From the NCBI RefSeq assembly GCF_029626235.1, contig NZ_JARUBO010000005.1:3876501-3940500 (forward strand): a stretch of 64,000 nucleotides of DNA, given 5' to 3'. The notes below the pieces were generated by a model. It was not told the origin of the DNA, made no database searches, and saw only the letters and a list, made by a program, of their open reading frames with translations. This DNA comes from Micromonospora sp. WMMD1120 (GTDB lineage Bacteria > Actinomycetota > Actinomycetes > Mycobacteriales > Micromonosporaceae). How positions within the stretch are numbered: the stretch's first letter is position 1; every line of letters begins with the position of its first letter. Of this stretch, positions 10,472 through 36,794 are shown piece by piece. The position numbers and the translations under genes were made by a program.

Positions 10472-10491
10472 CCCTTAGTTCGCGCAGGTCA

Positions 10492-20876: not shown

Positions 20877-20908
20877 CTAGTGCCGTGACCACGAACGTTC
20901 ACGGTGTT
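20877..20908 (+). repeat. Left terminal inverted repeat of IS630 element
   Basis: Begins CTAGTGCCGTGACCACGAAC; one mismatch to the complement of the right end. Confidence 0.93.
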
Positions 20909-22315: not shown

Positions 22316-23113
22316 TCACGGCTTCCGGGCGGTCAGCACCATCCAGGTGAGCTGGTGACTCACACTCAGGTCGATCTTGGTGTCCCAGCGCTTCAGGAGC
22401 TGGTCGTACTCACCGCTGGTGAACTGCTCCAGGAACCCGTCACGGTCATTGACCAGGCGGGCGCGTCCTTCGACCTCCGATGCCAGGAGGTCCTCGGTGC
22501 GGTCCTCGGCGGTGACGTCGCAGAAGCCGACCCGCCGCATCATCGTCGCGTACGCCTCCTGGTTGACAAGGTGGAAGCCACTGGAGTTGTGGAGCTCCTC
22601 GAAAGCCGGCGAGGACGGCGATTCGCCCCGGCAGTAGTCGGTGACGAGGACCCGTCCGCCGGACCGCAACGCCGTGAGGAGCCGGGACCAGGCACGCTCC
22701 CTGTCGCGCTCGCTGAGGTACATGAGGCAGTCCCGGGTCCAGACCAGGTCGACCGACTCCGGGGCCAGCTCCATCGTGCACACGTCACCGGTCTCGAACC
22801 TGATGCCGTCCACCGGTTCTGCGGCCAGGCGGTCGAGGCAGAGCTGGGTCATGTCGGCGGAGGCGTCGACGGCTCGAATGTTCACGCCGTAGCGGGTGGC
22901 CATCCGGACCGCGTCACCGCCCAGGCCGCTTCCGATCTCGAGTACGTCCATCCCCGCCCAGACGGGCTGCCGGGCGATGAGTGCCTCGAAAATCTCGTCA
23001 CTTGACGGGCCCTGATATCCGCTGCCGTAGATCCATTCCGAGCGTAGTGCGCCGCGGCGGGAGAAGCGCGGTGAGAACGGCCCGACCGGTGGGATCTCCT
23101 CGTTGACCATCAT
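22316..23113 (-). CDS. SAM-dependent methyltransferase, phosphoethanolamine N-methyltransferase-like
   Basis: 265 aa; two adjacent ATGs (23113, 23110) after an AGAGAGG stretch. Landmarks follow PMT/PEAMT enzymes in order: the N-terminal SEWIYGSGYQGPSSDE (compare YxFxFGxxYxSxGG), motif I VLEIGSGLGGDAVRMA at about 56-70, DASADM after beta-2, WTRDCLMYLSERDR, and LVTDYCRG. These enzymes methylate the amino group of phosphoethanolamine, of which 2-aminoethylphosphonate is a near isostere. In this cluster the natural guess is N-methylation of 2-AEP or a derivative. It is the last gene of the ten-gene operon, 43 nt after the NDK-like gene. Confidence 0.82.
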   Translation of the reverse strand: MMVNEEIPPVGPFSPRFSRRGALRSEWIYGSGYQGPSSDEIFEALIARQPVWAGMDVLEIGSGLGGDAVRMATRYGVNIRAVDASADMTQLCLDRLAAEPVDGIRFETGDVCTMELAPESVDLVWTRDCLMYLSERDRERAWSRLLTALRSGGRVLVTDYCRGESPSSPAFEELHNSSGFHLVNQEAYATMMRRVGFCDVTAEDRTEDLLASEVEGRARLVNDRDGFLEQFTSGEYDQLLKRWDTKIDLSVSHQLTWMVLTARKP

Positions 23114-23156
23114 GGTGTGGTGTCCGCCTCTCTCCGGGGATGCTGCGGGGTTACGG

Positions 23157-24113
23157 CTACGAGCCACTGAAACTGGCGATCGTCTTGGCCACGCCCGGCA
23201 GCTCGTACTCGATGTGGTTGCTCGCGACCAGCAGCGGGTCCCAGCCGTAGGGATCTATGCCGAGGTCGCGCAGCTGGCCGGCGAACGTCAGCCAGTCCAG
23301 CGTCTCGCCAGGCTGACCGGCGGCGTGCAGCATGGCGAGCAGCTTCTCCGCGACCGCCACTGCGTCGTGCTCGCGACCGGCGCGTTCGATGTCGGCGCGG
23401 AGTCGGGCCAGGGCACGCTCCGAGTGGAGATCGTGCGCGGCGATGGCGGCATAGACCTGGTCGACTTCCTGTCGGCAGTCGTAGGCGGCCCCGTCCTGGA
23501 ACGCCCCGGCGAGACGGGTGTGTAGCTGTGACAGCGCGGGTTCAGGAGTCAGGATCGCCAGTTCCCTCAGGATGTCCAGCGGTTCGTCGGGGCAGTGCAC
23601 GTTGGCGAAGATGCGGTTGATGGCACCCAACGTCGACCGGAGACTCTCCGGGCTGCGCTTGCTCGGATCGGACGAACCCTTGATCGCGGTCAGGCGGCTA
23701 CTGCGGGGAACCGTCGCGGTCAGCCGAGTGTCACGGAGAAACAGCATGAGGGACAGATCGAAACAGTAGACCCCTTCACCAATGGCCTTGCTGTCCTCGC
23801 TGATCGCGTTGAACTGGAAGCGCCACAGAGCCCGGGACATCTCCGGGGTGAGGTGGAATGGCACCGCCATGATTGGCTCGAAACCGTGCTGCCTGACGAA
23901 CGCCAGACAGTCGTCGACCTGACGGCGGGCAATCGCATCCGGCTGGATCACCAGGACGGTGAGCTCGGTCAACAGCGATTGTAGGGCCGCGCCATGCGCC
24001 CGTTCGGCCGCGGCGAGTCCGGCGGTCAGATAGCCGCCTGTCTCCACCTCGTAGTGCTCGAGCTTGCCTGGCAACTCGGTCAGGGTCGCCGGGTCTATCG
24101 TCGTGGCTGACAC
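23157..24113 (-). CDS. Nucleoside-diphosphate-kinase-like protein with altered active site
   Basis: 318 aa; GTG start with GGAGGT 8 nt upstream. Residues about 50-185 follow the NDK fold: LTVLVIQPDAIARRQVDDCLAFVRQHGF, LRDTRL, AIKGSSDPSKRSPESLRSTLGAIN and ANVHCPDEPLDILREL. The position of the phosphohistidine is kept (H173), but the Lys of the canonical KPD motif is Gln (Q57 in IQPD). The last 130 residues form a helical extension not found in normal NDK (about 140-150 aa). It may phosphorylate, bind or sense a phosphonate or phosphonate-nucleotide. It starts 4 nt after the aminotransferase stop. Confidence 0.68.
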   Translation of the reverse strand: MSATTIDPATLTELPGKLEHYEVETGGYLTAGLAAAERAHGAALQSLLTELTVLVIQPDAIARRQVDDCLAFVRQHGFEPIMAVPFHLTPEMSRALWRFQFNAISEDSKAIGEGVYCFDLSLMLFLRDTRLTATVPRSSRLTAIKGSSDPSKRSPESLRSTLGAINRIFANVHCPDEPLDILRELAILTPEPALSQLHTRLAGAFQDGAAYDCRQEVDQVYAAIAAHDLHSERALARLRADIERAGREHDAVAVAEKLLAMLHAAGQPGETLDWLTFAGQLRDLGIDPYGWDPLLVASNHIEYELPGVAKTIASFSGS

Positions 24114-24117
24114 GTGC

Positions 24118-25290
24118 CTACCTCCGCGTTTCCTCGGCCGCACGGCCGGTTCTCAGGTGTACTGGCAAGTTCTGTTGGGCCGGGCTGCTGCCTGCGAACA
24201 GCTCCAGCGTGTCCTCGAGCTCGGCGAGGAAGCGTTCCAGTGTCGTCAGGGACAGTTGGCCCATGTTGGCGACGCGGAAGTGGCCGGCGGCGAGCCTTCC
24301 CTGCCCGGCGTAGATGACGAACCCTCGTCGTTTGAGCTCGTCGTGCAGTCGCTGATACGGCACGCCGGGTGGCAGGAGCACGGTCGACACCGAGTTGGAT
24401 CGATACTCCGGTGCTACCAGCAGCTCGAGTCCGAGCCGTTCCAGCCCGGTCCGCAGGAGCTGGGCCCGCCGCTGGTAGTCGGCCGACCGCGCCGGATACC
24501 CGCCCTGCTCGCGGAGTTCCTTGAGCGCGTCGTCGAGGGCGTAGTAGACCTGCACCGCGGGGGTGAAGAGCACGTCGCCCGCCCGCTGCGCGGCAAGGTT
24601 CGCGGCAAGGTCCAGATAGGTGCTCCTGGACGGGACAGCGGCTATCCTCGCCGCGCCCTTCTGAGCGCTGACGAGCACGAAGGACGCGCCGGGCAGGCCG
24701 TGCAGTCCCTTGTTCGCCGTGCCGCAGATGAGATCGGCATGGATGGTTCCCAGGTCCGGCTCCTCGTGGCCGGTGGCGCTGATCGCGTCGACCACGAAGA
24801 CCGCCTCGGTGCCCGCGACGATCTCACCGATCTCTCGCACCGGGTTGATGAGGCCGGCGCTGGTCTCGTGCATCACCACGGCCACGGCGTCGATGTCGGG
24901 GTGCGTGGCCAGAACGTCCAGCACCGCGCCGGGATCGATCGGCTGGTCCCACGACGCGGTCACCTCGTACGTGCTGATGCCGTGTGCCTCGCACATGCGG
25001 CGCATCCGCTCGCCGTACGCGCCGTTGCTCAGCACGAGGACCGACCGGTTCGGGCGGACCGAGGCGAGCAGGCTCATCTCGACAGCTGCCGTTCCCGAAC
25101 CGGAGATCACCACAGCCTCGTGGCTGTCCGCGAGGTTCAAGGCCTCCACCAGGCCGGACCTGATCGAACCCAGCAGGTGGGCGAATTCGGGCTCGCGATG
25201 GCACAGGTCCCCGCGCCCCAGGGCCGCACGGACACGCGCCGAGGTGTTGGCAGGCCCGGGGTTCAGCAGCACCAGGTTCTCGTCCGTCAC
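24118..25290 (-). CDS. phnW: 2-aminoethylphosphonate:pyruvate transaminase-like enzyme (PhnW family)
   Basis: 390 aa class V PLP aminotransferase; GTG start overlapping the kinase stop (GTGA). PhnW landmarks in order are LLNPGPANTSARVRAAL, SGSGTAAVEM, VLSNGAYGERM, HETSAGLINPVREIG, FVVDAIS, TANKGLHGLPG with the PLP-binding Lys near residue 192, FTPAVQVYYALDDALKEL and RRGFVIYAGQG. Known PhnW enzymes interconvert phosphonoacetaldehyde and 2-AEP. With pepM and the split decarboxylase in the same locus it should make 2-AEP, running in the biosynthetic direction. A related amino donor or a larger aldehyde substrate is possible. Confidence 0.85.
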   Translation of the reverse strand: MTDENLVLLNPGPANTSARVRAALGRGDLCHREPEFAHLLGSIRSGLVEALNLADSHEAVVISGSGTAAVEMSLLASVRPNRSVLVLSNGAYGERMRRMCEAHGISTYEVTASWDQPIDPGAVLDVLATHPDIDAVAVVMHETSAGLINPVREIGEIVAGTEAVFVVDAISATGHEEPDLGTIHADLICGTANKGLHGLPGASFVLVSAQKGAARIAAVPSRSTYLDLAANLAAQRAGDVLFTPAVQVYYALDDALKELREQGGYPARSADYQRRAQLLRTGLERLGLELLVAPEYRSNSVSTVLLPPGVPYQRLHDELKRRGFVIYAGQGRLAAGHFRVANMGQLSLTTLERFLAELEDTLELFAGSSPAQQNLPVHLRTGRAAEETRR

Positions 25291-26156
25291 GTCTCCTTCC
25301 TCCGGTCGCCGACGCGCTCGCGAACCCGTCGATGGCGCAGCACGATGTCCATCGCCTCCTCAGCGGTGGTGCGCTGCGGTCGCCCGTCGACGCGAAGGAC
25401 GTGCCATCCCCACGCCTTGGCCGCGTCGACGAGATCCTGGGCAACCGCCGACTGGAGGTCGACGAACGCGGCCCTACCGGTCCGACCCGCCAACCACAGG
25501 TCTTCAGCTGGGCCCAGGCGGCCAAGGCCACGGCGCCACTCGTACGACCGCTCGGGGTCCGCGTCGAGGAGGATCCCTATGTCGGGCTGAAGGTAGGCAT
25601 CGCCGTACGCGGTCCGGATCAGGTCCGAGAACCGGTCCAGTGTCTCGTCGGGGATTGCCGGGTCGGGCAGCTCCCGGGCGATGCGCAGCACCTTGGCGGC
25701 ACTCTTGTAGCCGAAGCCGTCCGACAGGGCGATGGCTCCGCGCCTGAGCGCCGGCTCCACGGCCTCGGCCCGTACGATCTGGTCGATGGCGTACTCGGTC
25801 CACATCGTGGACACCGGCCCGGACCGTCGGACACCGGCCACGCTGTCGGGCAGCAGCTCGATGAACCGGTCGGTGGTCATTCCCTCGAACTGCAGTGGAA
25901 TCACGGCGTCCACCGGCGAGCCGGACCGGTGCCCACCGCCGAACAGCAGCCGCCACGCCTCCAGCCACAGCCGTTCGAGACTGGCGCCGGGATAACCACC
26001 GGTGTCGGCTGCCTGACGGATGACCGACTTACGCCCGACATTCACCCACTCCAGGCCCGCGTCGTCGAAGGCACGGCCGAGGTGGGTCAGGAGCGACGTC
26101 TTCCCGGAGCCGTCGATGCCCATCAGGGCGATGGAGATCCCCCGTTGCTGCTCCAT
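25287..26156 (-). CDS. P-loop kinase, thymidylate-kinase-like
   Basis: 289 aa, ATG 26156. Walker A GIDGSGKTS lies at residues 13-21 after MEQQRGISIALM, as in dTMP kinases. LSDGFGYKSAAK and the distal IGILLDADPERSYEWRRG (compare the LxLxVxPExxxxR of dTMP kinase) continue the resemblance. At 289 aa it is about 80 residues longer than housekeeping Tmk, with an insert around residues 55-110. In this cluster it may phosphorylate a phosphonate or nucleotide intermediate, or the final product as self-protection, as FomA/FomB do for fosfomycin (analogy only). It overlaps the aminotransferase by 4 nt. Confidence 0.72.
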   Translation of the reverse strand: MEQQRGISIALMGIDGSGKTSLLTHLGRAFDDAGLEWVNVGRKSVIRQAADTGGYPGASLERLWLEAWRLLFGGGHRSGSPVDAVIPLQFEGMTTDRFIELLPDSVAGVRRSGPVSTMWTEYAIDQIVRAEAVEPALRRGAIALSDGFGYKSAAKVLRIARELPDPAIPDETLDRFSDLIRTAYGDAYLQPDIGILLDADPERSYEWRRGLGRLGPAEDLWLAGRTGRAAFVDLQSAVAQDLVDAAKAWGWHVLRVDGRPQRTTAEEAMDIVLRHRRVRERVGDRRKET

Positions 26157-26158
26157 CG

Positions 26159-27379
26159 TCAGCGTCCGGTCTCTGCGCCCGAGACGGCACCACCCGCCAC
26201 GCCCTTGAGGAACGACAGCTTCGAGAGGTAGCCCACCTCGACCTTGATGCCCCACTCGGTGAGGAGGCGCTGCACCTCCTCGCTGAGGCGGAAGAGCTCC
26301 GGCTCGACCGTCTCGGCCACCACACCGAAGGCCGCCCGGGACTTGTGGTACTCGATCTCGAGTTGCCGGAGAACCGAGCCCTCCGACCAGACCTCGTCCA
26401 TCTCGAGACCGAAGTAGTGTCCGCCACGGGCGGACTCCACGTTGACGTCGAACCTGGTCCTGCGCATGTGGGGAAGGGGCCGAAGCTCGGCGCCCGGCAC
26501 CGATTCCCGGATGTGGTCCTCGAACTGGCTGGGTTCGAGCACGACGCCCTCGACGCACCGCTCGAAGCGGCGCAGGGTGTCCTCGGCGAAGAACTTGTAC
26601 TTGACCTCGTAGGTGCCGTCGTGCGCCGTCATGAACGCGATGTAGCCGGCGCGCTCCGGTGGACCGACGACCTCGAAGGTTTCCTGCTCATACGTCCAAC
26701 GCTGCATCTCGTTACCGAGGTCCGGAACGAATCCCGGCAAGGCGCGACGCTGCACGGCGTCGGCGAGTCGGTGGGCGACCTCCCATGGCACCGTGTCGTC
26801 GAGCATGGAGAGCTTCAGCTCGATCTCGGTGTCGGCGTCGAACCGGACCGTCTGCGACGCCTCGTCGCTGAAGCGTGCCAGGAGTCCAGGCTCGTGGAGA
26901 CAAGCGTGCTCGACGGAGCGCACGAGAGGCTCCCCAGCCGGGACGGGCCCGGCCCAGATCCGTGAGAAGAGCATGCCGGACTCACGGATGCGAGAGCACG
27001 AATAGACGGCGCGCTCGACCCCACCGTCGCCCGGCCACTCGGCGACCAGGAAGGTGGGCACCACGCGACCTCCGGCGGGCGTGATCGGCTCGCTCTGGAG
27101 CCGGTACAGATCACCGGTACGCCGGTCGAACGGCAGACCGGTGAACACGGCACGCGGAGTGGGAAAGGTCTGGTGGCGGTCGGGAGCCTGCCCAGCCTGG
27201 TCCCAGCCGAGGATCTGGTCGGCGACCACTTCGTCGTACGTGAGCCATTCGGTGGTGCCGGCGGGCTCGCCGGTGGCCGGCAGCCGAATCGCGGAGACGG
27301 CCGCCGATCGGGGCGCCTCGAGGCCGCGGAAGGCGACCGCGACCTCGCTGAACACCAACCAGCGCGTGACGTTGCTCAA
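26159..27379 (-). CDS. CYTH-domain protein with a novel N-terminal domain
   Basis: 406 aa; TTG start overlapping the MFS stop (TTGA), with AGGGAG upstream. The C-terminal half carries the CYTH/triphosphate-tunnel signature EIELK (E185-K189). Alternating charged strands follow, as expected for the tunnel fold: YEVKYKFF, RTRFDVNVES, HYFGLEMDEV, RQLEIEYHKSR. CYTH enzymes hydrolyse or cyclise triphosphates. The first 180 residues (MSNVTRWLVFSEVAVAFRGLE...) match nothing I know and may bind the substrate. In this cluster a role with a phosphonate polyphosphate or nucleotide adduct is possible. Confidence 0.66.
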   Translation of the reverse strand: MSNVTRWLVFSEVAVAFRGLEAPRSAAVSAIRLPATGEPAGTTEWLTYDEVVADQILGWDQAGQAPDRHQTFPTPRAVFTGLPFDRRTGDLYRLQSEPITPAGGRVVPTFLVAEWPGDGGVERAVYSCSRIRESGMLFSRIWAGPVPAGEPLVRSVEHACLHEPGLLARFSDEASQTVRFDADTEIELKLSMLDDTVPWEVAHRLADAVQRRALPGFVPDLGNEMQRWTYEQETFEVVGPPERAGYIAFMTAHDGTYEVKYKFFAEDTLRRFERCVEGVVLEPSQFEDHIRESVPGAELRPLPHMRRTRFDVNVESARGGHYFGLEMDEVWSEGSVLRQLEIEYHKSRAAFGVVAETVEPELFRLSEEVQRLLTEWGIKVEVGYLSKLSFLKGVAGGAVSGAETGR

Positions 27380-28581
27380 GAAACTTCTCCCTTCGGTTCG
27401 GCGAGGACCGCTTCAGGCCGCCCGCTGCGATAGGTGTGCGCAGCCCACACCGCGGCTGAGACCGCCGCCAGCACCAGCGCCGGTGCCCAGAACCAGGCGT
27501 CGTCGAGGCGGCTGGCCCAGGCGTAGATGAACCCGGACAGCGGGATGGCGCCGGTGATGAACATGCGAATCACGGCGTTCACCCGGCCGGCAAGCTCGAT
27601 CGGCACGGTCTCCTGCCGGTAGGTGATGGATGCGACGTTGCTCGCGCCGAGCGCGAACGAGATCAGCGTGTAGCCGGCGACCTTCACCGCCGGGTGCGGA
27701 ATCGCGATGACACACAGCGAGGCGAACGACATGAGCTGGAACGCGAGGATGCGCCACTCGACCGGCCGGGAGGGGAACATGTGCGGCCCGAGCCGGCTGC
27801 CGAACGCACCGACGAGCAGGCCGGCCGCGAGCACGATCGAGATGACCACCGCTTCGATGCCGTCGTCACCGAAGGTCGTCACGAGCACCGTTTCCAGGTC
27901 TCCGACCGCCAGGTTGGCGGTCGCCATCGTCACGACCAACCACAGGATCGCGGGACGTACGACCCAGCGAAAACCGATCCCGAGATCCTCGCGCAGCCTC
28001 GACCGCGGTCCATCCTGCGGAATGCCGGGTAGCAGGAGGGCGGCGAGCCCAGCGGCGAGATAGAGGGCCGCGATGAACCAGGACGCGGTCGCCGGGCCCT
28101 TGACGGAGAACACGAGTCCCCCGAGCAGCAGACCGATGACCTTGGAGAACTCGATCGCGGACGCGAGCTTGGCGACAGCCACATCGCGCTGACTCTTGTC
28201 GATGAGCTTCGGAATCAGCACGAACTGCCCCGTGATGCTGACCACCACTCCGCCGAATCCGGACAGGAGGAGCAGTAGCGCCACCGCGAGCCGGTTGGAC
28301 AGCACCATTGTCAGCAACGCCAGGCAGAGCGCCTGTTGGATCTGGGCCAGTACGAAGACGGTGCGTTTGTCGAAGCGGTCGATGATGGAGCCCAGAATGG
28401 GTGAGGCAATGTAGGCGACACTGCGCAGGGCAAATGCGACCAGCGCCGCAGCCACCGAATCCGTCTGGGCGAGGATCGCAAGCGGCACCACGATACCGAG
28501 CTGCCAGTCCGCGACCTTCGAGAGCATCGACGCGAAGATGACGACGCGTAGGGCTCTGGTGCCATTGTCACGCTGACTCAT
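27376..28581 (-). CDS. MFS transporter, probable phosphonate exporter
   Basis: 401 aa with about 12 hydrophobic helices and the MFS motif between helices 2 and 3 (SPILGSIIDRFDKRTV). Resembles the MFS_3 / enterobactin-exporter-like group. ATG 28581 is preferred because AGGAGG lies 9 nt upstream; this overlaps the previous gene by 14 nt. ATG 28605 is possible. Embedded in the biosynthetic operon, it likely exports the product and gives self-resistance. Confidence 0.88.
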   Translation of the reverse strand: MSQRDNGTRALRVVIFASMLSKVADWQLGIVVPLAILAQTDSVAAALVAFALRSVAYIASPILGSIIDRFDKRTVFVLAQIQQALCLALLTMVLSNRLAVALLLLLSGFGGVVVSITGQFVLIPKLIDKSQRDVAVAKLASAIEFSKVIGLLLGGLVFSVKGPATASWFIAALYLAAGLAALLLPGIPQDGPRSRLREDLGIGFRWVVRPAILWLVVTMATANLAVGDLETVLVTTFGDDGIEAVVISIVLAAGLLVGAFGSRLGPHMFPSRPVEWRILAFQLMSFASLCVIAIPHPAVKVAGYTLISFALGASNVASITYRQETVPIELAGRVNAVIRMFITGAIPLSGFIYAWASRLDDAWFWAPALVLAAVSAAVWAAHTYRSGRPEAVLAEPKGEVS

Positions 28582-29278
28582 CGAGGCAGCCTCCTGTGGG
28601 GTCATAGGGCTCCAGGCCGTTGCCCAGGAAGAACTGCAACGCCTCGCGACTGTCCGGATCGGTGTAACTGCCGAGGCAGGGGTGCGGGGCGACATCGTCG
28701 TAGGCGGCAACGCGCCTGCGGATCTCGCTCCGCACCTTGGGCGAGGCCCGGCCCTGCCGATCAAAGGAATCCCGGGCCTGGGCGATGATGGTGAGGGTGG
28801 ACCCCACGTTGCGGCTCCGGCGCGCGGTGTGCAGGGGTGAGCTGAAGTTCAGAAACAACCCCGTGTCCTCGAGCCAGAGCGTCCAGGACGACTCGTGCGG
28901 CTTGGGCAGGACAGCGTCGGGGTGCTTGAGTGCATTGGCGTTCATCACCGCCTGGACGATGCGTGTCGCCAGTTTGAACTCATCGTCGATCGACTGGGCG
29001 CCGGCATCGTCCACGAAGATGACGCCGATGGCGTCGGGGACGTCCCGGATGATGTCGCACAGTTCTCGCAGGAGTGTCACAGCGCGGCTCTCCACCGCAT
29101 CGGCACCCCGGACGATGTCGAAGTAGATCTCGCGGGTGGTGAAGGGTTGCGTCGAGAAGACGCACGGAAATTCCCGCGTATTGACCACCTCCTCGAAATC
29201 CCGTGCCAGTTCGAGCAGCCTGGGTGAGCAATCCACCGCCTCCGCCTCCGCCAGGAGGCGATCAACTCGTCGCAGCAT
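28568..29278 (-). CDS. YqcI/YcgG-family protein, candidate N-oxygenase (GntA-like)
   Basis: 236 aa; ATG 29278 after GAGGGG. Family landmarks are EFPCVFSTQPF, HESSWTLWLEDTGLFLNFSSPLHTARRSRN, the IIAQARDSFD strand, KVRSEIRRRVAAYDDVAPHPCLGSYTD and REALQFFLG. Members such as GntA of guanitoxin biosynthesis are N-hydroxylases described as haem-dependent. In a 2-AEP pathway this suggests oxidation of an amino group to hydroxylamine, oxime or nitro, which would make an N-O-containing phosphonate. It overlaps the ATP-grasp gene by 17 nt. Confidence 0.8.
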   Translation of the reverse strand: MLRRVDRLLAEAEAVDCSPRLLELARDFEEVVNTREFPCVFSTQPFTTREIYFDIVRGADAVESRAVTLLRELCDIIRDVPDAIGVIFVDDAGAQSIDDEFKLATRIVQAVMNANALKHPDAVLPKPHESSWTLWLEDTGLFLNFSSPLHTARRSRNVGSTLTIIAQARDSFDRQGRASPKVRSEIRRRVAAYDDVAPHPCLGSYTDPDSREALQFFLGNGLEPYDPTGGCLDESA

Positions 29279-30503
29279 GGCTGCCCCTCGTTGTGGCGGC
29301 GGAAGCGCTCCGATCTCCGCGAATGAACCGCACCGCTCGCGCGGCAAGATCGTCGAACCGTTCCCGCGTCTCGGCGCCGATGACGAGCTTGTGGCCGTAG
29401 TCCGTGCAGTGGCGGACCGTGCCAGCGACAGCAGGAGTGGCGAACTGGTACGAGAGGACGCCGGGTATCGCGTCGAGGAGATCGTCAGCGCGAGTGTCCT
29501 GACCCCTGTCGGAGTGGTACATGCCGACGATGCCGAAAACCGCCGTCGCGCGGTCGCCCTCGTCCGGAAGGTGAGGCACAACGCCGGACTGCAACTCGAT
29601 CGCCGCCCGGATCAGATTGACGCCGGTCCCGCGGAAGACGATGTCGTCGATACCGCCGCCCCCGGGACGGGCGGCAGCCTCGCAGAAGACCAGCCGACCG
29701 GCCGGCGTGTGGAAGTACTCGACATGGGTCACACCGCACGTCAGGCCGAGATGCCGGAGGACGAGCGCGTTGTCGGCACGGATCGCGTCCTTGAGTGCGC
29801 CGTCCTCCAGGAGCACGCTGCCCGCCACCGAGTTGGCACCGTACTGGCCGGGTGCCGCGATGTACTCCGAAACCGCTGAGAAGAGCACCTGACCGTCGTG
29901 TACGACGGCGTCACAGTGGTACATCGTGCCGTCGATGAACTCCTCGACCTCCAGGCCGTCCGATCGGCGCTCGAGCTCCCGCGCCGCCTCGTTGGCCTGC
30001 GCTATGTCACCGACGATCCGGACGTCGGAGGAGCCGACGCCCCAGCGGCTCTTCACCACGATCCGGCCCGTCCACGGCACCGACTCGATGACCTCCCCGC
30101 GCTCGAGCGAGCGGTACCTGGGCAGCCCCTGGTAGCCAGCCAAGGCGAGGGTGTCCTTCATCAGGACCTTGTCCCGGAACCGCAGCGTGGCCTCGAAGTT
30201 CATGCCCGGCAGGTCGAAGTCCTCGCGCAGTCGCGCCGCCAACAGCATGTCCTTCTCATGGATCGCGACGACCCGTTGGACACCGTGGTGCCGTATCGCC
30301 CATCGGGCAACGGCCTCGACGCGGCTCGCATCGTCCATGTCGAGCACGGCGACGTGCGGGAACGCGGTGGACTTGTAGCCCTTGAGCCCTTCACCGAACG
30401 TACGGGTGATGAGGAAGCGATCGGTGGGCGGCGCGGGGAGGTAGTCGTTGTCGGCGCCCACCGTCCATGGGAGGGCGTGCCGGTTGATGACGAGCGTCCG
30501 CAT
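29262..30503 (-). CDS. ATP-grasp ligase 1
   Basis: 413 aa; ATG 30503 shares its A with the stop of the upstream ATP-grasp gene (TGATG). The N-terminal preATP-grasp domain opens MRTLVINRHALPWTVGADND. ATP-grasp elements are FRDKVLMKDTLALAGYQGLP, GRIVVKSRWGVGSSDV (phosphate-loop Lys), VEEFIDGTMYHCDAVV and the metal site FCEAAARPGGGGI. Such enzymes join a carboxylate to an amine via an acyl phosphate. In phosphonate clusters they add amino acids to an aminophosphonate. Confidence 0.88.
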   Translation of the reverse strand: MRTLVINRHALPWTVGADNDYLPAPPTDRFLITRTFGEGLKGYKSTAFPHVAVLDMDDASRVEAVARWAIRHHGVQRVVAIHEKDMLLAARLREDFDLPGMNFEATLRFRDKVLMKDTLALAGYQGLPRYRSLERGEVIESVPWTGRIVVKSRWGVGSSDVRIVGDIAQANEAARELERRSDGLEVEEFIDGTMYHCDAVVHDGQVLFSAVSEYIAAPGQYGANSVAGSVLLEDGALKDAIRADNALVLRHLGLTCGVTHVEYFHTPAGRLVFCEAAARPGGGGIDDIVFRGTGVNLIRAAIELQSGVVPHLPDEGDRATAVFGIVGMYHSDRGQDTRADDLLDAIPGVLSYQFATPAVAGTVRHCTDYGHKLVIGAETRERFDDLAARAVRFIRGDRSASAATTRGSHAATS

Positions 30504-31666
30504 CACGACACCGCCTCGGTGACGACAACCGGCTGCGCTCGAAGTGCGGCGACAGCGGAGTGGCATGCCTGTGCGCTCGTACCGGACACGATGGCCCAAC
30601 CGACCCGGTCGCGAGAGCTCCGCAGGTCGTTGACGACATCGCCGACCTTGACCTCGATGGCCCAGTCCTCGACAGTGACGCCGTCGGAGACGCAAGCTGG
30701 CTCGGTGGTCCGCGTCACCGTGCCGGGCGGCGCGGTGAAGTAGGTGATCGCGGCGGCGTTGGCCCGTGGGCGCGGGTCCACCGGCGACTCTCCCAGGGGC
30801 CAACCCAGGCTGAGCCGCCGCCAGTCGAGGCCACAGGTGATGGCGACGAGATCGGCGATGCCGTCACCGCCGGGACGGTTGTGCGTTTCGATGATCTTCA
30901 CCCCGTGGTTGCTCACCTTCAACTCGGTGTGTGCGGGCCCGTCCCGCAGGCCCAGGGCGTCCAGCAGCTCACGGACCGATCGCTCGATCAGGTTCGACTC
31001 CCCGGCGGTGAGCGTCGTAGGCGGGGTCAGATGACTGACCTCTACGAAATGCCCCGCGACGCCCTTCTCGACGATCGCCACGACGTCGTGTCGGCCCGCC
31101 CGGGAGAAGCTCTCGACGCTGTACTCGGGACCGTCGACGTACTCCTCGAAGATGTTGCCGTCGGTGTACAGACGTGCCTCGTCAGCCGCGTCCAGTCGAC
31201 GCACACCCTCGCTTGCGGTCCCCGACACCGGCTTGACGATCACGTGGTCGTGGCCGGCGAACAGCTTCGCTACCGCATCCTCGTCACGTGCGTCGGCGAA
31301 CGCCACGCTGAGCTGAGGCGCACGCTGGGCCAGCAGCTCACGCATCAACAATTTGTCGCGCATCACCCTGACGACGTCGACCGATGTCGCCGGGGTGCCG
31401 AGCAGCGTCGACAGCACAGCGGCCGGCTGCAGCCCACCCTCGGTGACCGAGACGACCGCCTTCGGCCGGCGTGGAGAGAGGATCTCCTCGGCGAAGCGCG
31501 CGAGGACCCTCTCGTCGCGGAAGTCCAGCGTGAACGCCTCGTCGACGTCGTCACGGATCAGATCAGGCACGTGACTGCCGGGTAGCTGCACGAAGATCAA
31601 CGGCTCTCCCAGCGTCTGGGCGACCCGGGCGATGTTCGTGGATGCGCCGACGACGACCAGACTCAC
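30503..31666 (-). CDS. ATP-grasp ligase 2
   Basis: 387 aa; GTG start overlapping the pepM stop (GTGA). Order: preATP-grasp (MSLVVVGASTN), VMRDKLLMRELLAQRAPQLS, HVIVKPVSGTASEGVRR, FEEYVDGPEYSVESFS, and metal/ATP site VKIIETHNRPGGDGI. The GGDGI and EGVRR loops are those of biotin-carboxylase-like dipeptide ligases. It differs clearly from the next ATP-grasp enzyme, so two successive ligations with different partners are predicted, for example a peptidyl aminophosphonate (inference). Confidence 0.88.
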   Translation of the reverse strand: MSLVVVGASTNIARVAQTLGEPLIFVQLPGSHVPDLIRDDVDEAFTLDFRDERVLARFAEEILSPRRPKAVVSVTEGGLQPAAVLSTLLGTPATSVDVVRVMRDKLLMRELLAQRAPQLSVAFADARDEDAVAKLFAGHDHVIVKPVSGTASEGVRRLDAADEARLYTDGNIFEEYVDGPEYSVESFSRAGRHDVVAIVEKGVAGHFVEVSHLTPPTTLTAGESNLIERSVRELLDALGLRDGPAHTELKVSNHGVKIIETHNRPGGDGIADLVAITCGLDWRRLSLGWPLGESPVDPRPRANAAAITYFTAPPGTVTRTTEPACVSDGVTVEDWAIEVKVGDVVNDLRSSRDRVGWAIVSGTSAQACHSAVAALRAQPVVVTEAVS

Positions 31667-32577
31667 AGCCCGCCTCCGGAGAGCTCGAGCTCCGCGAGTC
31701 TGGCCTCTGCGAGCTTCTCGAACTGGACCTGTTGCTCCAGCATCCGGCCCATGCCCTGCAACTCGAAGACCCGGCTCAGGGAGGCGATCCGGGACTCGAC
31801 GTGGTGGCTGGTGCCGTCCTGAATGATCTGCTCGAGCACCTCCTGCATGGCAGCGATCGAGCCGCGCAGCGCATGATTCGCGTAGATCACCGCGCCGAAG
31901 CCCAGGGCCTCGAGGTCCGCGGCGGTCACCGTGTGGTAGGTGGTCGGCACGACGACGAGCGGGATCTCACCAGGGAAGCGCTGGCGGAACTCGCACACCT
32001 GATCCGGGCTCGACTGCTTGGAATGGATCAGCAGGGCATCGGCCCCGGCCGACGCGTACGCCTCCGCCCGCCGAAGCGCCTCGTCCATTCCCGCGCCGGC
32101 GATCAGTGCCTCGATCCTCGCCACCACGACGAAGTCCGGATCTGTCCGGACCTGGGTGGCGGCAATGATCTTCGCGGTGAAGTCACGTACCGGGGCCAGG
32201 TCCTGATTGCCCTCCACGAAGCTGTTGAGCTTGGGATACTGCTTGTCTTCGATGCACACGCCGGCGATGCCGGCCCGCTCGTAGCGCTGGACCATGTCAA
32301 CGACGTTGTTGACGTTCCCGAAGCCCGAGTCACAGTCCGCGAGCACCGGAATGTCGACCGCAGCAGCGATGTCCGCTGCGGCTTGCAGGCTCTGGCTCAT
32401 CGACAGGATGTTGGCGTCGGGAACCCCGGCCAGGGCCGAGATCTCAAGGCCGCTGGCCCAGATCGCGTCGAAATCCGCCTCGGAAGCCATACGAGCGCTC
32501 AGGGGACTGTGCGCACCCATGATGCGGGCAATCGAGGGCGCCGATAGGATGTTACGCAGAGCAGCCGTCTTGGTCAT
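31663..32577 (-). CDS. pepM: Phosphoenolpyruvate phosphomutase
   Basis: 304 aa. The diagnostic PepM signature EDKxxxKxNS is present at residues 110-119 (EDKQYPKLNS), with the metal-site loop ADCDSGFGN before it and ARIEALIAGAGMDEALRRAEAY after it. The intact signature separates it from isocitrate-lyase relatives and marks committed C-P bond formation: PEP to phosphonopyruvate. ATG 32577 has AAAGGG 12 nt upstream. It is the first gene of the ten-gene minus-strand operon and is preceded by an 830-bp untranslated-looking region with a promoter. Confidence 0.96.
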   Translation of the reverse strand: MTKTAALRNILSAPSIARIMGAHSPLSARMASEADFDAIWASGLEISALAGVPDANILSMSQSLQAAADIAAAVDIPVLADCDSGFGNVNNVVDMVQRYERAGIAGVCIEDKQYPKLNSFVEGNQDLAPVRDFTAKIIAATQVRTDPDFVVVARIEALIAGAGMDEALRRAEAYASAGADALLIHSKQSSPDQVCEFRQRFPGEIPLVVVPTTYHTVTAADLEALGFGAVIYANHALRGSIAAMQEVLEQIIQDGTSHHVESRIASLSRVFELQGMGRMLEQQVQFEKLAEARLAELELSGGGL

Positions 32578-33411
32578 CTGGCGACAACCCTTTCTACTGG
32601 TCAGGGACAGGGCGGCAGGAGACGCGCTCGACCGTCGACCTCATCGGCTGGGCGAACACCTGGCTCGACTGGACGAGTTCGGCCAAGGCGCAGCCGTACG
32701 GTGTGGACCGGGAATGATGCGCCGCAGTTGGGTGGACCGGGCGCAGCGGAAGCGTCGCTCTGGCGCTCCGAGGCTTTTGCGCCACATCGCCGAGGGGTAA
32801 CGACGTCAGGCGGGCCCGATCAGGCGGATCGGGCCGGGAATGTCGGGCGGGCACGCCGCAGCAATTGGTCGGGCGCCGACATTGAAGCGCGCCCTTCAGC
32901 GGCCGAAGCCGGTGTCTGCGGGATTCAGCCCGGCCCCGGAGCGAATCGGCGACGCAACCGAGCTCTTCGGCAATAATCGGCCCGTGGCATGGGTTCTCTG
33001 GCGCTACGCCAGAAAGACCGGAACGGTTTACGCGTCGCTGTTCTGCATGCAACAGACAAGCTATTCATCCTTGCTCGGAGGTGGCGAAGGGCAGCCAGAG
33101 GCCGAACAGGAAAACAGGGTCCTGACATCTCCGAGCCCATGTCGGACCCGGATAAACGCGCATGCCAGCGGCATAAATGCCGCAGAACCGCCCTGAATCA
33201 GAGCGCCTTACCGGTCTTGCCCCCGTTAACTGTTGCGGGCCTTTAAGCGGCCTACACATGTATGCATGGAAATTCTCACATGTTGCGCTGTTGTGTCAAG
33301 GGCCGCACCGGCGCGGGCAGGAGCCGGATCGGGCCTCGCGCGACCACTCTGCGCGGGCCGGTCGGACCTCCGGACCACGCAGCGCTACCGAGCGGTACGA
33401 CGTCCGGGTCA
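32578..33411. other. Long non-coding region upstream of pepM
   Basis: 834 bp with no convincing gene; the reading frames present have atypical amino-acid composition. It is AT-richer around 32,940-33,280. Visible structure includes the hairpin GGCCCGATC/GATCGGGCC (about 32,814-32,835) and TCTGGCG/CGCCAGA (about 32,998-33,014). A minus-strand promoter lies at 33271-33299. If that promoter drives pepM, the messenger has a leader of roughly 680 nt. Confidence 0.6.
33271..33299 (-). promoter_or_regulatory. Sigma-70-type promoter facing pepM
   Basis: On the minus strand TTGACA (33299-33294), a 17-nt spacer, then AGAATT (33276-33271), with TGTG before the -10 as an extended element. Two direct CACATGT repeats (33255-33261 and 33277-33283), each containing the palindrome ACATGT and 22 bp apart, flank the -10 and could be a regulator site. 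One helical turn multiple spacing favours binding on one face. Confidence 0.6.
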
Positions 33412-33960
33412 TCAGAGCCCTCCGGGCCCGGTTCCCTGCTCGCTCCTCCACGCCAGCAGCTGGCGATACGCCTCCCTGCCGTCCGGCACCCAGTCCCACT
33501 CGGCGAGCCGCCGACGAAGCTCCTCCTCGGTGATGAACGTGTACCAGGCGACCTCGCTGGCCTGCGGCTGCACCGGCGACTCGCACCGGATCTCGTAGAC
33601 GGAGGACCACCAGGTGTGTTCTGGAGTCGCATAAAGGAATTTGAACAGTGGGGTGGGAGCGGGCAGTCCTGAAATGCCCAGTTCCTCCTCCGCCTCGCGC
33701 AGCGCCGCCTCGTCATATGATTCGCCAGCGCCGACCACCCCGCCGACGAACATGTCGTACATGGATGGGAAGACAAGCTTCCGCGCCGTGCGGCGGTGCA
33801 CGAATATCTCCCCGGCGGCGTTCCGTGCCAGGACGAAAGTGCAGCGGTGACGCAACCGGCGGGCGTATGCGTCACTGCGCCGCGCCTGGCCCACCACTCT
33901 GTCGTGCTCGTCCACGATGTCCAGGACTTCGTCCGCTGAGAGCGGTGAGTTGTCAGCCAT
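33412..33960 (-). CDS. Nudix hydrolase (YfcD / IPP-isomerase-1-like)
   Basis: 182 aa from ATG 33960 (a TTG 12 nt upstream is possible). Opens MADNSPLSADEVLDIVDEHD and has RLRHRCTFVLARNAAGEIFVHRRT, typical of the YfcD/IDI-1-like branch. The Nudix box GGVVGAGESYDEAALREAEEELGI is complete, with the catalytic REXXEE as REAEEE. It likely hydrolyses a nucleoside-diphosphate derivative. It is divergent from the type-2 IPP isomerase at 34160. Whether it belongs to the phosphonate cluster is open. Confidence 0.86.
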   Translation of the reverse strand: MADNSPLSADEVLDIVDEHDRVVGQARRSDAYARRLRHRCTFVLARNAAGEIFVHRRTARKLVFPSMYDMFVGGVVGAGESYDEAALREAEEELGISGLPAPTPLFKFLYATPEHTWWSSVYEIRCESPVQPQASEVAWYTFITEEELRRRLAEWDWVPDGREAYRQLLAWRSEQGTGPGGL

Positions 33961-34159
33961 GCTGGCATCCAAGCAGAGGCCGGTGGCGGGACGCCATCGG
34001 TGGCTGCCTGTCCGACACGCCGCCGGGGCGCCGACCGCCGCTTGGAACCGGGCTGCGACCGGCAGCGGCGCACGAGCCGGTCCCGCTCGATTACCCGAGT
34101 GATCAGCACCGTTATCACCGGCACCATCGTCGGGCGTGACGAACGGCTACCCTTGGACC

Positions 34160-35263
34160 ATGTCGGATGAGTCGGGGTTGGACAAGCATTCCGTCTGGCG
34201 CAGCACGGACCAGGGCCGCAATGAGGGAAAAGTGACCACCTCCGTCCCGTCGGCCGCAGTCAGGAAAATGCGTCATGTGGAGGCCTGCCTCGGGCATCCG
34301 GTCCAATACGACAGCCGAACCACCGGTTTCGAAAAATTCGATCTGCCGTACGTGGCGCTGCCGGAGACGGACCTCTCCCAGATCGACACGCGGACGAATT
34401 TCCTTGGGCGCCCGTTGCGCGCTCCGGTCCTCATCGGCGCCATGACCGGCGGCACCGAACTGGCGGCCACCATCAATCGAAACCTGGCCGTCGCCGCCGA
34501 CCACCTGGGCCTTGGGCTCATGCTCGGATCCCAGCGCATCATGGTCGACGACGCGACCGCACGGTCGTCCTTCGAGGTGCGTAAGTACGCCGCCGACGCG
34601 TTGCTCGTCGGAAACCTCGGCCTCGCCCAGCTCAACAGTGGGTACACAGCCGCGCAGGCCCGCCTGGCGGTGGAACTGGTGGGCGCCGACGCCCTGGCCT
34701 TTCATACCAATCCCCTGCAGGAGGCAATGCAGTCCGGCGGGGACGGCAACTTCCGAAGTCTGGTGAGCCGGCTGGCGGAGGTCGTCGACGCGGTGCCATT
34801 TCCGGTCCTGCTGAAGGAGGTGGGGCACGGCATCGGTGCGGTGACCGCCGGACGCCTCGGGGACGTCGCGCTGGCGGCCGTGGATGTGGCCGGGGCGGGC
34901 GGCACGTCGTGGAGCCGGGTGGAGCAGTACGTCGCACATGGCGAGGTGCGCCATCATGAGCTCGCGGAGTGGGGCATCCCCACCATGCAGGCTCTCTGCG
35001 AGGTCAAGCAGGTCATGCCGAGGATGCCGTTGATCGCTTCGGGAGGCATCAGGTCCGGCGTCGACGCCGCGAAGGCGATTGCCCTCGGCGCGAGCGTGGT
35101 GGCGGTGGCGCTACCACTGCTCGAACCGGCGACACGGTCACCGGAGGCTGTCATCGGCTGGTTGGAGCGCTTCCTCTGGGAGTTGCGCGTGGCCATGCAC
35201 TGCGCCGGCTGCGCGAACCTGGCGGAGCTGTCCGCGGTCGGCCGCCTGCAGCCGCGGTTCTGA
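34160..35263 (+). CDS. fni: Type 2 isopentenyl-diphosphate isomerase (FMN-dependent)
   Basis: 367 aa, close to the family norm. Landmarks are AAVRKMRHVEACLGHPVQY (RKxxHixxc), APVLIGAMTGGTE, LGLMLGSQRIMVDD, GNLGLAQLNSGY, NPLQEAMQSGGDGNF (substrate-binding NxxQE), LLKEVGHGI, DVAGAGGTSW and the FMN phosphate site IASGGIRSGVDAAKAIALGA. It interconverts IPP and DMAPP. A TACCCT box ends 6 nt before ATG 34160, so the messenger is likely leaderless. It lies directly before the split phosphonopyruvate decarboxylase genes; its link to that pathway is unclear. Confidence 0.9.
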   Translation: MSDESGLDKHSVWRSTDQGRNEGKVTTSVPSAAVRKMRHVEACLGHPVQYDSRTTGFEKFDLPYVALPETDLSQIDTRTNFLGRPLRAPVLIGAMTGGTELAATINRNLAVAADHLGLGLMLGSQRIMVDDATARSSFEVRKYAADALLVGNLGLAQLNSGYTAAQARLAVELVGADALAFHTNPLQEAMQSGGDGNFRSLVSRLAEVVDAVPFPVLLKEVGHGIGAVTAGRLGDVALAAVDVAGAGGTSWSRVEQYVAHGEVRHHELAEWGIPTMQALCEVKQVMPRMPLIASGGIRSGVDAAKAIALGASVVAVALPLLEPATRSPEAVIGWLERFLWELRVAMHCAGCANLAELSAVGRLQPRF

Positions 35264-35355
35264 GCATGCGCGCGGCGGGCAGTCTCCTCCTGGCCGGCGA
35301 CCACCGAACACTCTCGGGCATCGACGCGCGGCACATCCGGCGTCGGTGTCGTCTA

Positions 35356-35384
35356 TTGACATATCAGCCCACGCTGACGAGCAT
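35356..35384 (+). promoter_or_regulatory. Candidate promoter of the decarboxylase genes
   Basis: A perfect TTGACA (35356-35361) with a 17-nt spacer to a weak GAGCAT (-10). It lies 116 nt before the first decarboxylase start in the 236-bp spacer after the isomerase gene. Confidence 0.4.
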
Positions 35385-35499
35385 CTACCAACGTCATCCG
35401 GCGTCCGCTGAGGCGGGGTGCCGAGAACGGGGGAAGCGGAAGCGGCTCAAGGGATCTCTCAGCCATCCGGCAGGGAGCATCTCGGCGTGAGCGCGCGCC

Positions 35500-36054
35500 G
35501 TGTCGACCAGGAGATCACCGAGGAGGCGGGACGTCCTGTCCACGTCGTCACACTCACCACACGCTCAGACCATCATCGATCGGCTCGCGCACCATGGCGT
35601 CACCCATGCCACCGGCGTGCCCTGCTCATATCTCAAAGGACTGTTCAGTCTGCTCGAGGCCGGGGCCCGGCACGCCGCAGGCATCCGCTACCTCCCCGCT
35701 CCGAGGGAGGATACGGCCCTCGGTGTCGCGTCCGGAATCGCCGTCGGTGGCCAGCGGCCGGTGGTGCTCATGCAGAACTCCGGTCTCGGGTACTCGTTGA
35801 ATGTCCTGACGTCGTTCAACCTGATCTACGACGTTCCCCTGCTGCTCATCGTGAGTTGGCGCGGATGTCCGGGTGCGGGCGACGCGGTGGAGCATGACGT
35901 CATCGGGGAGAAGCTTCCCGCGCTGCTCGATCTGTTCGAGCTGCCCTACGAGATTCTTGCCGCTCGTGACCCCGCCGCGAGCGTCGACCGCTGTATGAAG
36001 CTGATGGCCGACACCTGCCGACCCACCGTGCTGATCGTCCCTGAAGGGGTTTGA
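35500..36054 (+). CDS. Phosphonopyruvate decarboxylase, alpha (N-terminal PYR domain) subunit
   Basis: 184 aa. ThDP-enzyme PYR domain: IIDRLAHHGVTHATGVPCSYLKGLFSLLE, then YLPAPREDTALGVASGIAVGG with the activating Glu, LMQNSGLGYSLNVLTSFN and PLLLIVSWRGCPGAGDAVEHDVIG. GVPCSYL and the SWRG segment are typical of Ppd. The GTG at 35500 lacks a good ribosome site, whereas AGGAGG at 35521-35526 lies 6-9 nt before GTC 35533/CTG 35536, so translation may begin there at a rare codon. One-chain Ppd is about 370-390 aa; here it is split in two. Confidence 0.87.
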   Translation: MSTRRSPRRRDVLSTSSHSPHAQTIIDRLAHHGVTHATGVPCSYLKGLFSLLEAGARHAAGIRYLPAPREDTALGVASGIAVGGQRPVVLMQNSGLGYSLNVLTSFNLIYDVPLLLIVSWRGCPGAGDAVEHDVIGEKLPALLDLFELPYEILAARDPAASVDRCMKLMADTCRPTVLIVPEGV

Positions 36055-36055
36055 C

Positions 36056-36613
36056 GTGTTGACCTCGGAAGCGGTCATGAAGCGGGTGATCCGGGCGGTG
36101 CCGGACGCCTGCGTCGTGTCGACCTGCGGATATCCCAGTCGAGAGCTTTACAACATCGAGGACCGCCCGGGCAATCTGTACCTGCTCGGCTCGATGGGCA
36201 TGGCAGCCCCGATCGCGTACGGGATCGCACTGGCACGCCCCGGACGTCACGTCGTCGCCTTCGACGGCGACGGCTCCGTGGCCATGAATCTCGGTTGTCT
36301 GACCCTGGCGGCGGAGACAGCCGCATCCGTCATTCACGTCGTGCTCGACAACGGCATGCACCAGAGCACCGGTGGACAGAAGTCCCTGCTACCCACCAGT
36401 CTGACAACCGTCGCCCGGGGCGCGGGTTATCCGACCGTGCTGAGCCTACGTTCCGAGGACGACCTCGCCGCCCTGGACACCATCGGCGAGCACCGAGGGC
36501 CGTTGTTCGTGCACGCCACCGTGGTACCCCGCCAGTCGGGAGCCGGTCGTCGTGTCCAGCAGACACCGCAGGAGTTGGTCGCACGCGTCGGCGCGTTCCT
36601 CGACATGAGCTGA
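36056..36613 (+). CDS. Phosphonopyruvate decarboxylase, beta (ThDP-binding) subunit
   Basis: 185 aa; GTG start one nt after the alpha stop, with GAAGGGG upstream. PP domain: STCGYPSRELYNIEDRPGNLYLLGSMGMAAPIAYGIAL, the ThDP/Mg motif GDGS (71-74) followed by AMNLGCLTLA and the closing VLDNGMHQSTGGQKS. Together the two chains give the complete fold that decarboxylates phosphonopyruvate to phosphonoacetaldehyde, the step that makes C-P formation irreversible. The two-gene form resembles the sulfopyruvate decarboxylase layout (ComD/ComE), but pepM in the locus favours phosphonopyruvate. Confidence 0.88.
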   Translation: MLTSEAVMKRVIRAVPDACVVSTCGYPSRELYNIEDRPGNLYLLGSMGMAAPIAYGIALARPGRHVVAFDGDGSVAMNLGCLTLAAETAASVIHVVLDNGMHQSTGGQKSLLPTSLTTVARGAGYPTVLSLRSEDDLAALDTIGEHRGPLFVHATVVPRQSGAGRRVQQTPQELVARVGAFLDMS

Positions 36614-36794
36614 TCCCGACCAGCGGCCTCGACATCTCTGAGCCGTCCAGGGTGGGTGGGAGCCTGTTCGGAGGGTCGCACTCGACTCCGCAGGTGTGGA
36701 CGGCCGTCGCCTCGTCGCCGGTTGCGTGGAGGTCCGACGATAGGATCGGCGAACACCGATCGATGTGCGTTCGCCGTCCCTTGCAGGAGGTGTC

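Follow-up and report, generated by a model that had tools for sequence, protein, structure and literature searches.

A putative 2-aminoethylphosphonate gene cluster in Micromonospora joined to a portable cassette predicted to make an N-hydroxyarginine peptide

The window analysed here is a stretch of 64,000 nucleotides from Micromonospora sp. WMMD1120 (G000:C5:3876501-3940500, part of a 7.15 Mb genome), and it holds a phosphonate gene cluster built around phosphoenolpyruvate mutase (PepM). We confirm that the cluster is genuine and that, as a whole set, it is undescribed in the literature and gene neighbourhoods that we searched, and we establish its gene identities, its operon structure and the recurrence in other genomes of a five-gene cassette that lies inside it. 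The reading that we favour, at about even confidence, is that of a hybrid cluster in which a pathway to 2-aminoethylphosphonate (2-AEP) has been fused to a transferable cassette for an N-hydroxyarginine peptide, and whose predicted product would be a 2-AEP analogue of the phosphonopeptide antibiotic argolaphos. What this analysis chiefly adds is the portable cassette, the residue pattern of its YqcI/YcgG hydroxylase, and an unexplained type 2 isopentenyl-diphosphate isomerase (IDI-2) beside the operon.

Gene identities were assigned by Pfam and NCBIfam profile searches with curated cut-offs (Table 1). A preliminary description of positions 22316 to 36613 had listed pepM with its signature motif, a split phosphonopyruvate decarboxylase (Ppd), a PhnW-like aminotransferase, two different ATP-grasp ligases, a YqcI/YcgG protein, a methyltransferase, an exporter and three proteins of nucleotide- or phosphate-binding fold. 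All of these genes were recovered in place, Ppd and PhnW with partial or sub-cut-off matches, and the last three are an NDK-like protein, a protein of the thymidylate-kinase (TMK) fold and a triphosphate tunnel metalloenzyme (TTM) with a CYTH domain. What that inventory missed were IDI-2 and a Nudix gene inside the same interval, and the fact that five of its genes occur as a unit in loci free of pepM. Ten genes at 22316-32577, all on the minus strand, follow one another at distances of -17 to +43 bases and so form one operon, not a chance pile-up: PepM, two ATP-grasps, YqcI/YcgG, an MFS protein, CYTH, the TMK-fold protein, the PhnW-like aminotransferase, the NDK-like protein and the methyltransferase. 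Beside the operon lie the Nudix gene and, on the plus strand at 34160-38003, IDI-2, the split Ppd and a PucR-type regulator, to which the cluster probably extends. A promoter and terminator scan gave one site each, with the terminators under the shuffle mean, and was not used.

Table 1. Features of the phosphonate cluster and its borders (positions in the window)
Feature	Position	Strand	Support
IS630-family transposase; left-hand boundary, outside the pathway	20904..22085	+	NF033545 181.8 bits, cut-off 100
S-adenosylmethionine-dependent methyltransferase	22316..23113	-	PF13649 60.1 bits (on open reading frame 22316-23167)
NDK-like protein	23157..24113	-	phmmer to PDB NDK domains, best E 0.00012
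PhnW-like 2-AEP aminotransferase	24118..25290	-	TIGR03301 325.1 bits, best match, below cut-off 360.8
P-loop kinase of TMK fold; predicted phosphoryl transfer to phosphonate	25287..26156	-	
TTM/CYTH protein, CYTH fold in C-terminal half; cassette gene	26159..27379	-	
MFS exporter; cassette gene	27376..28581	-	PF07690 80.3 bits (on longer open reading frame 27376-28764)
YqcI/YcgG heme N-hydroxylase, predicted arginine N-hydroxylase; cassette gene	28568..29278	-	PF08892 89.2 bits
ATP-grasp ligase 2, divergent; cassette gene	29262..30503	-	PF13535 19.1 bits (below cut-off); PRK02186 45.9 bits
ATP-grasp amino-acid ligase 1 with LAL_C2 domain; cassette gene	30503..31666	-	PF13535 56.3 bits; PF18603 46.6 bits
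PepM, phosphoenolpyruvate mutase; first operon gene	31663..32577	-	TIGR02320 325.6 bits, cut-off 319.55
Nudix hydrolase, YfcD-like	33412..33960	-	PF00293 52.5 bits; PRK15393 116.9 bits, cut-off 152; Nudix box at residue 74
Type 2 isopentenyl-diphosphate isomerase (IDI-2)	34160..35263	+	TIGR02151 362.1 bits, cut-off 281.3; 1vcf match E 4.1e-100
Ppd, N-terminal (alpha) half	35500..36054	+	PF02776 42.7 bits; TIGR03297 112.7 bits, profile 1-153
Ppd, C-terminal (beta) half	36056..36613	+	PF02775 67.9 bits; TIGR03297 141.1 bits, profile 172-359
PucR/CdaR-type regulator; likely right-hand boundary	36765..38003	+	PF13556 56.1 bits

PepM carries the motif EDKQYPKLNS at residue 110, an instance of the EDKxxxxxNS signature. 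The two Ppd halves score slightly higher against the alpha and beta subunits of sulfopyruvate decarboxylase (116.1 and 143 bits) than against Ppd itself, and since both profile families stay under their cut-offs the name Ppd is taken from the PepM context. In the NDK-like protein a histidine within NVHCPD aligns with the catalytic histidine of NDK. The methyltransferase has several NCBIfam methyltransferase matches, all below cut-off, among them sarcosine/dimethylglycine N-methyltransferase at 46.7 bits; that it methylates 2-AEP is something we only infer.

The hydroxylase bears most directly on the chemistry. A four-sequence alignment of YqcI proteins (A2) finds AglA, the YqcI/YcgG enzyme of the argolaphos pathway, in the PDB (9uba, 9ubb and 9ub3, E 9e-28 to 8e-27); to verify the AglA numbering, two mutant chains were compared, and they differed from each other at 196 and 225, as they should. 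The heme ligand Cys44 and residues Phe152, Arg166, Gln177, Arg179, Phe182, Arg200 and Gln228 of AglA are kept in the window protein as C39, F142, R156, Q167, R169, F172, R187 and Q215. The phosphonate contacts are not kept (Lys196 is R183, Ser221 is P208, Thr222 is D209 and Lys225 is E212), and all four A2 sequences have R183 and E212. According to PMC12866846 and PMC8976061, the YqcI/YcgG proteins whose role is known act on arginine, hydroxylating nitrogens of its guanidine group, and the former reports that the AglA single mutants K196R and K225E each hydroxylate free L-arginine at the internal nitrogen. From the conserved guanidine pocket, the altered phosphonate loop and the activity of these mutants we predict that the window YqcI is a hydroxylase of free arginine or an arginyl peptide, which fits its presence in pepM-free loci; N-oxidation would thus probably target arginine rather than 2-AEP.

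PepM and the kinase gene enclose the cassette as a single block (26159-31666), which recurs elsewhere without them. In Streptomyces sp. CBMA123 (locus L006) ATP-grasp 1, ATP-grasp 2, YqcI, MFS and CYTH stand in the same order at 52-63% identity, the two ligases at 55% and 52% and the exporter at 63%; no PepM-like match there exceeds 28% identity (E 7e-15), and the genome is therefore counted as lacking PepM. All five genes are also together, in a different order, in another Micromonospora (locus L034, genome G152; ligases 44% each, exporter 47%), in whose genome nothing matches PepM at E<=1e-45, and a further locus, L035, holds four of the five. Two carbamoyltransferases flank the cassette in L006 (400-2706 and 11403-13568). 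CYTH relatives are rare: of 354 Micromonosporaceae genomes 15 have one, and of 392 Streptomyces genomes 21. Among 41 loci fetched for CYTH relatives, 40 had a CYTH match; at least two ATP-grasp stretches lay within 8 kb in 13 of these 40, MFS relatives in four, YqcI relatives in three (L006, L034, L035), PepM in three (L007-L009) and all five cassette genes in two. A scan of genome contigs gave eight CYTH loci. The CYTH protein has the ExExK motif and the tunnel fold, and may be a triphosphatase or cyclase; searched against PDB sequences, its profile drew only two matches, at E 0.6. Relatives of the CYTH and TMK proteins also apparently share five further contigs (2854, 18165, 35720, 100282 and 326118 long), contigs having been matched by size, so that only the long ones carry weight and short ones (4933, 1379, 1781) coincide between lists by chance. 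Plasmid collection records held relatives of CYTH (5), TMK (1), YqcI (35), IDI-2 (171) and PepM (387), all below 60% identity.

The favoured hybrid pathway would begin with phosphoenolpyruvate, converted by PepM to phosphonopyruvate, by Ppd to phosphonoacetaldehyde and by the PhnW-like enzyme to 2-AEP, the product that the preliminary description had also expected from these three genes. The five-gene cassette would make a small N-hydroxyarginine peptide and export it through the MFS protein. AglA requires a conjugate of aminomethylphosphonate (AMPn) and arginine, whereas the window YqcI would most likely act on free arginine or an arginine peptide ahead of phosphonate attachment. The ATP-grasp ligases would then couple hydroxyarginine to the 2-AEP amine, probably together with a further amino acid. 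The TMK-fold and NDK-like proteins probably phosphorylate the phosphonate, for activation or self-protection, and the CYTH and Nudix proteins would trim the resulting phosphoanhydrides. Two or three methyl groups on the 2-AEP nitrogen would bar an amide there, so the methyltransferase would add at most one at that position or would methylate the peptide. Hydroxyarginine joined to 2-AEP would have an m/z of 298.127, or 312.143 with an N-methyl group, to which the mass of a further residue would be added; the same calculation reproduces m/z 284.1118, the value given for argolaphos B (PMC12866846).

Several observations weigh against this scheme. Each Ppd half falls below the full-length TIGR03297 cut-off (312.5 bits), the PhnW-like match (325.1 of 360.8 bits) and the Nudix match to PRK15393 are likewise under theirs, and the comparison at K196 and K225 is a profile alignment to AglA with four sequences. 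We know of no role for CYTH proteins in peptide synthesis, and 27 of the 40 CYTH loci have no ATP-grasp pair. Hydroxyarginine in the product of the L006 cassette is itself inferred, given the adjoining carbamoyltransferases. IDI-2 has no place in the scheme. There is also no nucleotidyltransferase among the Pfam and NCBIfam hits in the cluster, and such genes are common in phosphonate clusters (PMC6697681).

The preliminary description had proposed an N-modified 2-AEP coupled to amino acids. Its outline of a small-molecule phosphonate cluster that also encodes amino-acid ligases, an exporter and a methyltransferase is supported; the part that made 2-AEP the substrate of the N-oxygenase is not. 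Oxidation of the 2-AEP nitrogen by YqcI to an N-hydroxy or nitroso phosphonate, followed by amino-acid coupling, would suit a gene that shares its operon with PepM and the PhnW-like gene, and the AMPn-bound AglA structure shows that a pocket of this fold can hold a phosphonate (PMC12866846). We nevertheless rate it very improbable: the residues that hold the guanidine and side chain in AglA are kept and the phosphonate-binding loop is lost, YqcI proteins of the same subfamily occur in pepM-free loci, and the characterised members named in PMC12866846 act on arginine or its derivatives. It is unlikely, though less so, that the ligases use other amino acids and that the hydroxylation of arginine is incidental, so that the product would be a 2-AEP phosphonopeptide of unpredictable residues. 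ATP-grasp specificity cannot be read from sequence, and the LAL_C2 domain of ligase 1 is common to many L-amino-acid ligases; set against this, the ligase pair accompanies YqcI in three of the 40 CYTH loci, and the relatives of YqcI imply arginine.

The recurrence of the cassette also allows for two independent pathways, one to a phosphonate and one to a hydroxyarginine peptide, that came to share an operon by insertion and yield separate products. That the cassette is self-sufficient elsewhere and forms one block here agrees with this, yet both borders of the block appear translationally coupled (PepM and ligase 1 overlap by 4 bases, CYTH and TMK are 2 bases apart), CYTH and TMK relatives apparently share the five further contigs, and CYTH with an ATP-grasp pair adjoins pepM in L007-L009; we consider separate products distinctly improbable. 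Least probable of all is cell-surface tailoring, in which 2-AEP or methylated 2-AEP would be placed on a glycan or lipid. Most bacterial 2-AEP capacity does serve cell surfaces, as stated in PMC6697681, but the Pfam and NCBIfam hits in the cluster include no nucleotidyltransferase, glycosyltransferase or LicD-type gene, and the ligases and MFS exporter point to a small molecule.

The hybrid reading leaves IDI-2 to be accounted for. The protein has the motifs RKMRH, MTGG, HTNPLQE and KEVGHG, which we take to be catalytic, and is the only IDI-2 above cut-off in the host genome. The host also encodes Dxr (378.8 bits), of the methylerythritol phosphate (MEP) pathway, and a type 1 isopentenyl-diphosphate (IPP) isomerase (110.6 bits), both over cut-off, which makes the window copy redundant on paper. 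Membership in a mevalonate operon was rejected for the host, whose best mevalonate-kinase match (54.5 bits, cut-off 163.05) lies elsewhere on the chromosome, and so was the idea of a general companion of phosphonate clusters, since none of the 62 other pepM neighbourhoods described below has a match at E<=1e-5. Seven of 141 genomes of the genus, host included, have an IDI-2 above cut-off. Five of these proteins are about 33% identical to the window copy, and the one inspected (L187) adjoins mevalonate genes. The seventh, in L192 (8721-9791), is 69% identical and adjoins a Trp_DMAT prenyltransferase and a beta-eliminating lyase. In a tree of 60 relatives and three loci the window copy groups with metagenome sequences P0102-P0104, with P0105 and the L192 copy one step out (support 100/99). 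The copies of the window and L192 mark an IDI-2 clade that sits inside biosynthetic clusters rather than mevalonate operons. A tryptophan dimethylallyltransferase with a beta-eliminating lyase is the arrangement of the 6-dimethylallylindole type of cluster (PMC3617294), and this favours a supply of dimethylallyl diphosphate (DMAPP) as the role of the L192-type clade. No prenyltransferase was found near the window IDI-2 among the open reading frames scanned at 9.6-51.4 kb, which are not every frame there, and none of the best 120 of 6734 IDI-2 relatives lies on a contig of one of the five lengths shared by CYTH and TMK relatives.

For the window copy we tentatively put a passenger first, and a supply of DMAPP for an unrecognised step is possible, if doubtful; self-protection seems unlikely and a changed function more unlikely still. 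A bolder version, which we hold to be extremely improbable, is that the kinases make a prenyl-diphosphate analogue from N-methylated 2-AEP that blocks, for example, the type 1 IPP isomerase, with the unrelated IDI-2 as an insensitive stand-in and the hydroxyarginine peptide as a carrier into target cells. It starts from the otherwise redundant position of IDI-2 beside the MEP pathway and the type 1 enzyme of the host, and the proposed phosphonate would resemble 2-(dimethylamino)ethyl diphosphate, which acts on IPP isomerase as a transition-state analogue. Other points speak against it: the chain of the phosphonate is shorter by one atom than that of this compound, a dimethylated 2-AEP nitrogen is unable to form a peptide amide, organisms with a working MEP pathway can usually do without IPP isomerase, the L192 clade resembles a DMAPP supplier, and IDI-2 is missing from all 62 pepM neighbourhoods.

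At E<=1e-45, 35 of the 354 Micromonosporaceae genomes and 43 of the 392 from Streptomyces have a PepM relative. The 62 neighbourhoods compared are the best 26 of 36 non-window matches in Micromonosporaceae and the best 36 of 49 in Streptomyces, leaving aside the 10 and 13 lowest-scoring (38-42% identity); most span about 10 kb per side, and several are ended by contig ends. None of the 62 holds the full gene set of the cluster, nor, within Micromonosporaceae, does any of the best 26 of 36, the comparison that the preliminary description had suggested. YqcI relatives (E<=1e-5) occur in none of the 62, in a scan that reaches close relatives and that strongly diverged ones would escape. A CYTH relative occurs in one (L007), TMK relatives in two (L101, L160), NDK relatives in three (L121, L124, L164) and a PhnW relative in 24. 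By eye, the locus of the closest PepM (G060, 70%) has an aldehyde-dehydrogenase-like gene and two ATP-grasp-like genes, and that of the next (G129, 64%) an aldolase-like gene; both belong to other chemistry than the cluster in the window. The TMK-fold gene holds only partly as a phosphonate marker: PepM is its neighbour in L101 and L160, whereas no PepM lies near its closest relatives within the family (L097, L099). Literature searches (phosphonate with IPP isomerase; CYTH/TTM with ATP-grasp biosynthesis; 2-AEP with hydroxyarginine) returned nothing that describes this gene set. The claim that no described pathway has it was therefore borne out in the literature and the 62 neighbourhoods searched; the list of described pathways given with that claim, none of which matches the whole set, had left out the nearest relative, argolaphos.

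Some neighbourhoods have features of their own. The host genome contains a second PepM (G000:C5:6509998-6510840, L121), 47% identical to that of the window, with Ppd and an NDK-like gene among open reading frames of polyketide-synthase or nonribosomal-peptide-synthetase size. Two tandem NDK-like matches adjoin a Micromonospora pepM in L124 (12045-13956), and in the Streptomyces pepM locus L160 (5353-7913) the TMK-fold gene adjoins a frame similar, on inspection by eye, to a B12-type ribonucleotide reductase.

The GC content of the window, in 2-kb steps, is 0.63-0.69 over 16-42 kb and 0.70-0.77 over most of the remainder; the step at 10-12 kb stands at 0.66. Together with the IS630 transposase on the left flank, the lowered values would fit a horizontally acquired island. 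A tRNA-Val gene (10400-10473) lies to the left of the low-GC stretch (16000-42000) and is a possible island attachment site. An Rhs-type open reading frame (18114-20153) has a pretoxin HINT domain and a Tox-ART-HYD1 end, ADP-ribosyltransferase-like, in the arrangement of polymorphic toxins.

If the hybrid reading is right, hydroxyarginine peptides are made by a portable unit of five genes, which can combine with different partners, a phosphonate among them, and CYTH with twin ATP-grasps and YqcI would serve as a search key for a peptide family missed by mining based on pepM. There would be a natural set of YqcI proteins predicted to hydroxylate free arginine, an activity that AglA acquired through engineered mutations, and a 2-AEP member beside argolaphos, with a testable question about an IDI-2 inside a phosphonate cluster.

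Among pepM-free systems the nearest are the stand-alone loci L034 and L006, which share both ATP-grasps, YqcI, MFS and CYTH with the window and, unlike it, have no relatives of PepM, Ppd, PhnW, TMK or NDK nearby, L006 adding its carbamoyltransferases. L007-L009 (Streptomyces alboflavus, S. typhae and S. aureocirculatus) share PepM, Ppd, CYTH and an ATP-grasp pair within 6 kb; they differ in having no YqcI, TMK, NDK or IDI-2, and, as seen by eye in L007, a gene resembling Fe-alcohol dehydrogenase replaces the PhnW-like one. The nearest described pathway is that of argolaphos (alp/agl, Streptomyces monomycini NRRL B-24309; PMC8976061), a relative in logic and a different kind of cluster. The comparison with it is by annotation, only part of the AglA sequence having been aligned. 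Seven gene types are shared: PepM, the putative Ppd, YqcI/YcgG (AlpD/AglA), the ATP-grasp PRK02186 (AlpC), the NDK-like protein (AlpE), the Nudix protein PRK15393 (AlpB) and MFS (AlpN). The argolaphos route leads to AMPn through AlpG, AlpJ, AlpK and AlpL, in place of which the window has its PhnW-like aminotransferase; the families of HEPD-like AlpG, AlpJ and AlpK are absent from the Pfam and NCBIfam hits in the cluster. The GNAT ligases AlpF and AlpO, the nucleotidyltransferase AlpM and AlpP have no counterpart in the cluster, no GNAT or nucleotidyltransferase being among the same hits. The window in turn has a second ATP-grasp, the CYTH/TTM protein, the TMK-fold kinase, the methyltransferase and IDI-2 in addition. 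AglA and the window YqcI have the same fold family, heme cysteine and guanidine-pocket residues, and differ in the phosphonate-contacting loop, where Lys196 and Lys225 of AglA are Arg and Glu. Argolaphos is a phosphonate joined to amino acids that include N-hydroxyarginine (PMC8976061), and we predict that the product of the cluster in the window is of this kind, with 2-AEP as its phosphonate.

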